Part shown: positions 6,055-60,658 of the stretch, in pieces
Layout: each line of letters begins with the position of its first letter
Numbering within the stretch: the first letter of the stretch is position 1
Source of the DNA: Halanaeroarchaeum sp. HSR-CO
Lineage (GTDB): Archaea; Halobacteriota; Halobacteria; Halobacteriales; Halobacteriaceae
Length of the DNA stretch: 64,000 nt
NCBI RefSeq assembly: GCF_024972755.1
Contig: NZ_CP087724.1
Location: 2,418,001-2,482,000 of the forward strand
Direction: 5' to 3'
Notes under the pieces: generated by a model
Seen by the model: only the letters and a program-made list of their open reading frames with translations
What the model was told of the DNA's origin: nothing
The model's database searches: none
Program-made: the position numbers and the translations under genes

Positions 6055-6103
6055 GAGGGAGGGGCGAGCGCTAGCGAGCGGAGCGCAGCAAACGGTAGGA
6101 GAG

Positions 6104-6533
6104 TGGGCCAGTGCGGATTTTGAACCACGGTCGTTCCGCTCCGCTTCACTCCCTGATTCAAATCCGCACCCATTTTCTCTGAGTGACTGCGCCGAGCGAT
6201 AGTAACGCTCGGCGCGTTTGTGAGAGAAAAATTGGCCAGTGCGGATTTGAACCGGAGCCAGACGGTCCGGGTCGCTCGTTTCACTCGCTTCCCGGGCTGC
6301 GACTGGCAGGGCTCAAATCCGTGGCCGCTTCTCGGAGGGAGCGAGCGACGACAGGGCGTCGTCGCTCGCGGAGAATGAGAAGTGGGCCAGTGCGGATTTG
6401 AACCGGAGCCAGACGGTCCGGGTCGCTCGTTTCACTCGCTTCCCGGGCTGCGACTGGCAGGGCTCAAATCCGTGGCCGCTTCTCGGAGGGAGCGAGCGAC
6501 GACAGGGCGTCGTCGCTCGCGGAGAATGAGAAG
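6104..6533 (-). repeat. Tandem array of tRNA-Ile 3'-end 'echo' hairpin units
   Basis: Three units lie directly downstream of tRNA-Ile: A (6104-6231, 128 bp, diverged), B (6232-6382) and C (6383-6533). B and C are each 151 bp and identical except at their first few bases. In tRNA sense each unit has two parts. First comes a spacer hairpin that abuts the preceding tRNA end; in C, CTTCTC pairs with GAGAAG around an 11-bp inner stem. Then comes a long hairpin whose left arm, CGGATTTGAGCC, is the complement of the tRNA T-arm and whose right arm is an exact copy of the last 22 nt of tRNA-Ile. No coding potential is seen. Confidence 0.9.
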
Positions 6534-6607
6534 TGGGCCAGTGCGGATTTGAACCGCAAACTTCCACCTTATCAGAGTGGCGCTCTACCTGATTGAGCTA
6601 CTGGCCC
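6534..6607 (-). tRNA. tRNA-Ile (GAT anticodon)
   Basis: A 74-nt cloverleaf. The acceptor stem GGGCCAG pairs with CTGGCCC and the discriminator is A. The anticodon loop CTGATAA gives anticodon GAT. The T-arm is TGCGG-TTCAAAT-CCGCA. CCA is not encoded and no intron is seen. A TATA-like TTTAAG lies about 30 bp upstream on the minus strand. The 3' end is followed by the echo array. Confidence 0.97.
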
Positions 6608-19172: not shown

Positions 19173-19273
19173 TGCGAGGGAAGGGATTCGAACCACGGTC
19201 ACAAATCGGAGATTTGTTCCCTGATTCGAATCCTTCCGTCTCGTTTCACTCCTCACTTCGTTCGTCGTGAAAC
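19173..19273 (-). repeat. Single tRNA-Leu 3'-end 'echo' hairpin unit
   Basis: A 101-bp unit directly downstream of tRNA-Leu. It ends with an exact copy of the last 22 nt of that tRNA (complement at 19173-19194). In tRNA sense a spacer hairpin (GTTTCAC / GTGAAAC) abuts the mature tRNA. Then GGAAGGATTCGAATCA pairs with the echo TGGTTCGAATCCCTTCC, with one bulge. The loop holds a further ACAAATC-TCC-GATTTGT hairpin. Confidence 0.85.
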
Positions 19274-19356
19274 TGCGAGGGAAGGGATTCGAACCCTCGG
19301 ACCCCTGCGGGAGCGGGTCTTAAGCCCGCCGCCGTTGGCCGCTTGGCTACCCTCGC
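19274..19356 (-). tRNA. tRNA-Leu (TAA anticodon)
   Basis: An 83-nt class II tRNA with a long variable arm. Acceptor GCGAGGG pairs with CCCTCGC and the discriminator is A. The anticodon stem-loop GCGGG-CTTAAGA-CCCGC gives TAA. T-loop is TTCGAAT. No intron or encoded CCA. Its 3' end is followed by one echo unit. Confidence 0.97.
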
Positions 19357-60137: not shown

Positions 60138-60587
60138 ATGGGGCACAAATACCGTTGCTCGTTTTTCTCGCAGGCCGCTCGAAAAACTGCGCCGGCCAGG
60201 ATTCCCGTGAGCGACCGTCAGGGAGCGAGGGGGACGCCGTTGGGCTTTGCCCAACGAAAATTGAACCAAAATCAGACGTGCTCACTTCGTTGCGCGCGTC
60301 TGATAGGGCTCAATTCCCTCTGCTCGTTTCCCTCACCCGTATGCTCGCGATGGCGCAGCCATCGCTCGCGGAAAGGGTTCGGAAAACTGCGCCGGCCGGG
60401 ATTCCCGCGAGCGACCGTCAGGGAGCGAGGGGGAAGTCGGGCGGCGCACGACCGAAGGGAGTGCGCCGGCCGGGAATTGAACCAGAGCCAGACGGTCCTG
60501 CTCACCTCGCTTCGCTCGGCTGCGCGGGCTGCGACTGGCAGGGCTCAATTCCCTGTGCTCGTTTTTCTCGCAGGCCGCTCGAGAAAC
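60138..60587 (-). repeat. Array of tRNA-Gly 3'-end 'echo' hairpin units
   Basis: Downstream of tRNA-Gly. Echoes of the tRNA 3' end begin at 60188 (partial, 13 nt), 60388 (partial) and 60462 (full 22 nt). The two partial copies are exactly 200 bp apart. The newest unit (60462-60587, 126 bp) has the same core as the tRNA-Ile units B and C but with a Gly-matched T-arm (GGGAATTGAGCC against GGTTCAATTCCC). An older core lies at 60261-60317. A spacer hairpin (TTTCTCG / CGAGAAA) abuts the tRNA. Confidence 0.85.
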
Positions 60588-60658
60588 TGCGCCGGCCGGG
60601 AATTGAACCCGGGCTATGAGCTTGGGAAGCTCATGTCCTACCACTAGACCACCGGCGC
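60588..60658 (-). tRNA. tRNA-Gly (CCC anticodon)
   Basis: A 71-nt cloverleaf. Acceptor GCGCCGG pairs with CCGGCGC and the discriminator is A. The anticodon stem-loop TGAGC-TTCCCAA-GCTCA gives CCC. T-arm CCGGG-TTCAATT-CCCGG. No encoded CCA, no intron. Upstream TATA-like GAAATAGC on the minus strand. The 3' side carries the echo array. Confidence 0.97.

Follow-up and report, generated by a model that had tools for sequence, protein, structure and literature searches.

Short hairpin units that carry the tRNA 3' tail behind haloarchaeal tRNA genes look like exchangeable cassettes

The window analysed here, i.e., the whole stretch of 64,000 nucleotides from Halanaeroarchaeum sp. HSR-CO (contig NZ_CP087724.1, positions 2,418,001 to 2,482,000), holds a tRNA-Ile gene behind which copies of its own 3' tail are stacked, raising the question of what these units are and how they came to be there (Table 1). 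The initial annotation had described two near-identical units of 151 bp, each ending in the tail of tRNA-Ile, with an older unit beyond them, and all three statements were borne out. The units at 6232-6382 and 6383-6533 are identical at 150 of 151 positions, the sole difference being located at 6233, and the spacing is 151 bp both from unit B to unit C and from unit C to the tRNA-Ile tail. The last 18 nt of tRNA-Ile recur on the minus strand at 6399 and 6120 without mismatch and at 6248 with 2 mismatches; in the tail copy of the older unit A, the T-loop is longer by one base. Beyond what had been described before, an inverted T-loop was identified in each unit, unit A was found to have the same layout as B and C with other stem sequences, and the same design recurs behind about half of the genome's tRNAs. 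Read in tRNA sense, the tRNA-Ile units have the order P1-T'-P2-T, in which T' (GGATTTGAGCC) pairs against the T-loop (GGTTCAAATCC). As a consequence of the inverted T-loop inside each unit, T'-P2-T forms a long hairpin, and for the 301-nt pair of units B and C a fold of -172 kcal/mol was obtained (z = -10.6 vs shuffles). The Rfam scan of the array in the window gave nothing convincing except tRNA, with none for RtT (E up to 1), and no integrase was recognised among the ORFs around the array.

Table 1. Units in the window, with the array behind tRNA-Ile(GAT) resolved into its elements
Feature	Positions	Strand	Basis
tRNA-Ile (GAT), anchor of the array	6533..6607	-	ARAGORN; Rfam RF00005, 71 bits
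P1 of unit C, palindrome with ends CTTCTC/GAGAAG	6472..6532	-	sequence and fold
T' of unit C, inverted T-loop, GGATTTGAGCC in tRNA sense	6461..6471	-	
P2 of unit C, type CCAGTCGCAG...GACCGTCTGG	6405..6460	-	
T copy of unit C, exact tail of tRNA-Ile	6382..6404	-	
P1 of unit B	6321..6381	-	
T' of unit B	6310..6320	-	
P2 of unit B	6254..6309	-	
T copy of unit B	6232..6253	-	
P1 of older unit A, layout as in B and C, sequence different	6170..6231	-	
T' of unit A	6157..6169	-	
P2 of unit A, type TCAGGGAG...GACCGTGG, occurs class-wide	6127..6156	-	
Decayed T copy of unit A, T-loop longer by one base	6103..6126	-	
One unit behind tRNA-Leu(TAA) (19274-19356), like the Ile units	19173..19273	-	
One unit behind tRNA-Gly(CCC) (60588-60658), then a decayed second unit	60462..60587	-	

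The general order of the units is T-P1-T'-P2-T, where P1 and P2 are hairpin stems and T' is an inverted T-loop. T covers the 3' part of the tRNA, starting with G53 at the 5' edge of the T-loop and running to the 3' end. Over 130 copies, identity of the T copy to its tRNA is 31% at position -2, 86% at -1 and 100% from position 0 (G53) up to the mature 3' end, and this sharp start of identity at G53 indicates that in many different tRNAs the repeated part is set by the 5' edge of the T-loop. The T' element follows the T-loop of its own tRNA, with 0.28 mismatches to the own T-loop vs 0.92 to the consensus (39 units), and where the T-loop of the tRNA reads TTCAAG, TTCAAC or TTCGAA, T' of the units is complementary to it. 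Unit spacings range from 67 to 252 bp and are mostly below 160 bp, which is too short for typical genes. When P2 stems at least 90% alike were compared, the nearest one was located at another tRNA in 34 and at the same tRNA in 31 cases; sharing of P1 was found almost only between the same or like-tailed tRNAs, e.g., two Glu or two Leu tRNAs. The orientation of P2 relative to the tRNA is fixed in cross-tRNA pairs (49:0), which would not be expected if the part between T' and T inverted freely.

The survey of tRNAs covered four genomes and was based on genome regions. Within the window genome, 20 of 43 tRNAs have their own tail repeated behind them, between one and six times each, giving 41 copies in total, while units were identified behind 25 of 44 tRNAs in the congener (G001) and behind 19 of 44 and 23 of 43 tRNAs in two species of another genus. 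The tRNAs free of units in all four genomes include Ala-TGC, Asn, both Gln, Leu-CAG, Lys-CTT, Ser-GCT, Ser-GGA and all three Thr. A relaxed hairpin pattern matches the window genome almost only behind tRNAs and on the tRNA-sense strand. The pattern GATTTGAA-N25-55-GTTCAAATC was present in 261 of 292 Halobacteria genomes (about 90%), the reversed control pattern giving 0, and elsewhere in the phylum no more than a handful of genomes contain the T'...T pattern, each of them once, with one of these matches seemingly being a piece of a tRNA gene. Scanning named genomes with one P2 type revealed at least 120 loci. Among the P2-type matches listed, the titles are haloarchaeal except for one unplaced Euryarchaeota MAG, 121 of the 128 distinct hairpins reside at most 383 bp behind a tRNA of the same strand (median 49), and 87 of the 128 have a T identical to the tRNA tail over 17 nt. 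The initially proposed minimal element with the tRNA 3' end as its target is supported as regards the target, but not as a single element, as a class-wide system at many tRNAs was found.

Turnover of the units was derived from the comparison of relatives. Most members of the family have no unit behind tRNA-Ile, whereas several relatives have 1, others 2 and the window genome 3, and the single copy number and sequence in all relatives that the initial annotation had set against its own reading was not found. Between the congeners, the number of T copies differs in 55 of 100 same-anticodon comparisons, those of Met including non-orthologous pairs. Exact empty and filled sites were identified for Glu-CTC (+101 bp), Met (+93), Tyr (+117) and Val-GAC (+118), with larger ones for Ser-TGA (+375 and +231) and Leu-GAG (+284). 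At Glu-CTC, one 101-bp unit is placed beside a cassette-free tRNA and the flank then continues as in the sister species; at Ser-TGA, three extra units adjoin the tRNA, with two shared units beyond them. The extra Ser-TGA cassettes (G009, G001) differ from their neighbours in both P1 and P2 and are hence not tandem copies, plain tandem duplications having been found at Gly-TCC (111-bp units) and for the two Ile units. Segments that are tRNA-adjacent in one species and displaced in the sister are shifted to a T end within 2 nt in 19 of 34 cases, the remaining 15 of 34 showing no fit to a T end. Mismatches in T amount to 0.15 for the first copy vs 1.07 for the last copy (p = 7e-4). The Ser-TGA tail ends in GC or GT, each with its own P1, and the nucleotide directly behind the tail belongs with the P1 that comes next. 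At Arg-TCT of G009 (L274), the tRNA tail is unlike that of the sister species G003 (L307), and the displaced T copies keep the sister's tail; within this pair of genes the tail was replaced in one species, and one T-stem change in the tRNA body restores pairing.

Cassette turnover that is exact, polar and tRNA-specific is well supported by these data, whereby a comparison of two species leaves not every event polarised, so that some may be losses. The earlier idea of repeated insertion at the tRNA end is supported by the presence or absence of whole units exactly adjoining the tRNA between sister species, by the decay of displaced copies and by the varying unit number. Since the units come and go as exact units beside the tRNA, those behind about half of the haloarchaeal tRNAs look like a widespread mobile or exchangeable cassette.

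Some loci hold structures of other kinds. The tRNA-Leu(CAA) locus of G009 (L283) carries a 324-bp tandem duplication with a longer piece of tRNA-Leu that begins at the anticodon arm, a different kind of tRNA-derived remnant. For tRNA-Arg(CCG) of G001 (L341), two tandem copies were found, one of them with a degenerate tail, and a hairpin upstream of tRNA-Arg(CCG) at G000:C1:443072 is perhaps the trace of a lost copy. The tRNA-Tyr locus of G003 (L311) contains an insert of 1.8 kb, located 317-2080 behind the tRNA, that holds two ORFs of about 263 and about 227 aa and is absent from G009. Its ORFs gave no confident Pfam family and it is bounded by tail copies that include the 5' T-stem strand; it is a small integrative element without integrase. 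Being the sole candidate for a gene-bearing cassette, it was dismissed as such due to its ordinary att-like ends.

Searches for carriers gave no match of the Ile unit among phage or plasmid records, and neither main P2 type was present in a set of 2.9 million viral contigs. In these phage, plasmid and viral-contig searches, no virus or plasmid was found that uses a hairpin of this kind as att site of its own. The Gly unit matched only a megaplasmid-borne tRNA-Gly array, next to short matches; on the 828-kb megaplasmid NZ_CP031306.1 of Natronorubrum bangense, a tRNA-Gly(TCC) has a unit behind it (L372:3001-3197). An IMG/VR contig with tail-fibre-like genes holds an intact haloarchaeal-type tRNA-Glu followed by a T'-P2-T unit (L371:13744-14000) and may represent a provirus edge or a virus-borne tRNA. 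Several bacterial-type viral contigs (L364-L370, e.g., L368:13876-13933) possess a near-perfect hairpin in which the 3' part of a tRNA is joined by its own inverse (GGATTTGAACCGTGGACCTCTGG...CCAGAGGTCCACGGTTCAAATCC), with shared flanks and a variable inner sequence, which resembles a folded att site.

The reading favoured here, which was judged to have an even chance of being correct, is that of an array of short gene-less hairpin cassettes of the composition T-P1-T'-P2, anchored at the tRNA and recombining at the T-loop. As the comparison of sister species shows, whole cassettes of about 70-250 bp, mostly 70-160 bp, enter and leave next to the tRNA with exact boundaries; a newcomer supplies a new tRNA 3' tail, and the old tail, together with the older cassettes, is pushed downstream, where they decay. 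The recombination point is likely to be located at the T-loop: the tail travels with the cassette and the base after the tail with P1, which fits recombination at the T-loop with an incoming tail, and the exchange point would then be G53/T54. P2 stems are shared between different tRNAs, presumably as the universal T-loop is common to T' and T, while P1, presumably owing to the specific tail that flanks it on one side, is shared mainly between like-tailed tRNAs. With P2 fixed in orientation, ordinary double-strand recombination at T and T' is less likely, and a site-specific recombinase may be envisaged that reads the folded single strand as the integron integrase reads attC, with the tRNA T-arm putatively in the place of attI. 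A link to tyrosine recombinases was rejected, as 4-18 PF00589 matches were found in hairpin-rich and hairpin-free genomes alike; in the window genome, no PF00589 match is located near the array. Counted against the cassette reading were the PF00589 comparison, from which no recombinase emerged, the fixed P2 orientation, the plain tandem duplications in arrays such as Gly-TCC and the two Ile units, the 15 of 34 displacements that do not match a T end, the fact that no cassette circle or excision product is visible in the assemblies, and the T-T' wobble pairs at two positions, which would suit RNA. The more far-reaching proposal of a class-wide integron-like system in haloarchaea, in which T-arms serve as anchors and a putative recombinase moves folded, single-stranded, gene-less cassettes and thereby rewrites tRNA 3' tails, is speculative and was considered unlikely.

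Whether DNA or RNA is the acting molecule bears directly on the alternatives. It is established that the T'-P2-T hairpin is structured on the tRNA-sense strand, as both its orientation and its loop types keep to one strand: hairpins capped by GA-NN-GNA-NN-GA were found 64 times in sense vs 3 times in antisense (shuffles 0.7), and the MFE is better for the sense strand in 77 of 99 non-tied units. With this strand structured, the processing signal in the tRNA trailer that had been suggested initially is conceivable, and the finding speaks for an RtT-like RNA element of the pre-tRNA trailer, according to which the units are transcribed into a hairpin with a tRNA-like tail, whose structure would be kept for 3' processing, termination or as a small RNA and whose copies would arise via unequal recombination. 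The same holds for the T-T' positions G53 and T54, where G.U-type pairs occur in 34 and 33 of 106 units with almost no A.C, and for E. coli RtT, which has the same layout and is annotated as RNA. Within the inner stems, however, G.T mismatches are about as frequent as A.C mismatches (22:25 in P1, 44:30 in P2), so that no RNA wobble signature is present, and GNRA loops were not found in the cap context. Furthermore, half of the tRNAs and entire genomes are without units, and the hairpin could form without the acceptor part of the tail being copied exactly. On balance, a trailer RNA was hence regarded as rather improbable. Triloops of the GNA type, a class with very stable DNA mini-hairpins, made up 60 of 72 triloops in the first set of units; GNA loops as a universal DNA signature were discarded, as the short alpha P2 type has TTY loops.

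Passive turnover by host recombination or repair, proceeding without a dedicated enzyme or function as for REP sequences, could involve hairpin slippage, unequal crossing-over between T copies or microhomology exchange at the universal T-loop. It would agree with the near-identical tandem units (Ile, 150/151; Gly-TCC, 111-bp units), with the PF00589 comparison, from which a dedicated gene did not emerge, and with the confinement of the units to tRNA 3' flanks, the site of T-loop microhomology. Nevertheless it was deemed distinctly unlikely, as the extra Ser-TGA cassettes of G009 and G001 are unlike their neighbours, the Glu-CTC insertion beside a cassette-free tRNA left the flank intact, and structure, orientation and class-wide motifs are kept. 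That the units are scars or decoys of integrative elements, the T copy being the attR of a deleted virus or plasmid or being kept to divert integrases, appears highly improbable. Archaeal integrases do commonly target tRNA 3' ends (PMC8371274), and the tRNA-Tyr gene of G003 has its 1.8-kb ORF-bearing insert between tail copies. The ordinary att-like tRNA-Tyr copy, however, reaches the 5' T-stem, whereas the T copies of the units stop at G53; moreover, the Ile unit is without match in phage and plasmid records, the two main P2 types are absent from the viral contigs, and T' and P2 would be left unexplained. For the decoy for integrases, as put forward in the initial annotation, no positive evidence was obtained.

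Searches of the open literature gave no description of these units, which hence appear to be undescribed in the literature searched. Their characterization documents a precise, polar and tRNA-specific turnover of non-coding hairpins with occasional replacement of the tRNA tail, provides a testable model for tRNA 3' ends as recombination sites and links RtT, an obscure E. coli repeat, to an archaeal system of the same layout. It may point to a new recombination enzyme or to a new class of tRNA-trailer RNAs.

Among the known systems, haloarchaeal MITE, PATE and SMR occur at scattered sites and are recognised by their transposon ends or terminal repeats (PMC3119063). With these, the units have in common that they are short, palindromic, non-coding and strain-variable, but they are located behind tRNAs and carry the own tail of the respective tRNA; rather than being dispersed with transposon-like ends, the hairpins of the window genome are nearly all found behind tRNAs. 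Archaeal tyrosine recombinases target tRNA T stem-loops and 3' ends (PMC8371274), and the att sites of archaeal integrases resemble the units in that the tRNA 3' part is duplicated on integration and the T stem-loop is a known target region; the units differ in that no integrase or autonomous element was found alongside.

A further likeness is that to integrons, whose attC sites have the ends RYYYAAC...GTTRRRY. The attC sites fold into hairpins that are used strand-selectively and whose ends are complementary over 9-11 bases (PMC2727003). Integron arrays are polar behind one anchor, with imperfect hairpin ends, a variable inner stem and a fixed strand, and the haloarchaeal units likewise possess strand-fixed, imperfect hairpins with conserved short ends (ATTTGAAC...GTTCAAAT), a variable inner stem and 9-11 complementary end bases, as well as polar insertion at an anchor. 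They differ in that an integrase gene in cis is absent, the cassettes are without ORFs and the anchor is a tRNA gene. The likeness is one of layout and polarity, recombination of the haloarchaeal units being a putative process, and as the adjacent integrase and the gene cargo are both missing, the units were not classed as an integron.

The question of a published element that already explains the array leads to RtT, i.e., the 178-bp repeats of E. coli tyrT/tyrTV (RF00391), which are arranged in tandem behind the tRNA and whose units end in a tail copy, as in haloarchaea. For tyrTV of E. coli K-12 (L251), the last 19 nt of the tRNA recur exactly at 159, 337 and 515 nt behind tyrV, and about 100 nt ahead of each tail copy 10 nt of the tail are found inverted and without mismatch, which yields the T-P1-T'-P2-T layout; to our knowledge, the inverted tail ahead of each tail copy has not been stressed for RtT. 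Four matches to the Rfam RtT model were obtained for E. coli tyrTV, with 1-9 places per E. coli genome, whereas five array loci gave no match to the RtT covariance model (E up to 0.05), and the haloarchaeal units hence may work alike but are no members of RtT. In addition, RtT of K-12 is found at tRNA-Tyr alone and its T begins 3' of the T-loop (AATCC), while the haloarchaeal units occur at about half of all tRNAs and their T begins at G53. As an explanation, RtT therefore holds for the layout but not for the sequence family, and with the layout in common and the sequence different, E. coli RtT is the closest known counterpart of the haloarchaeal units.
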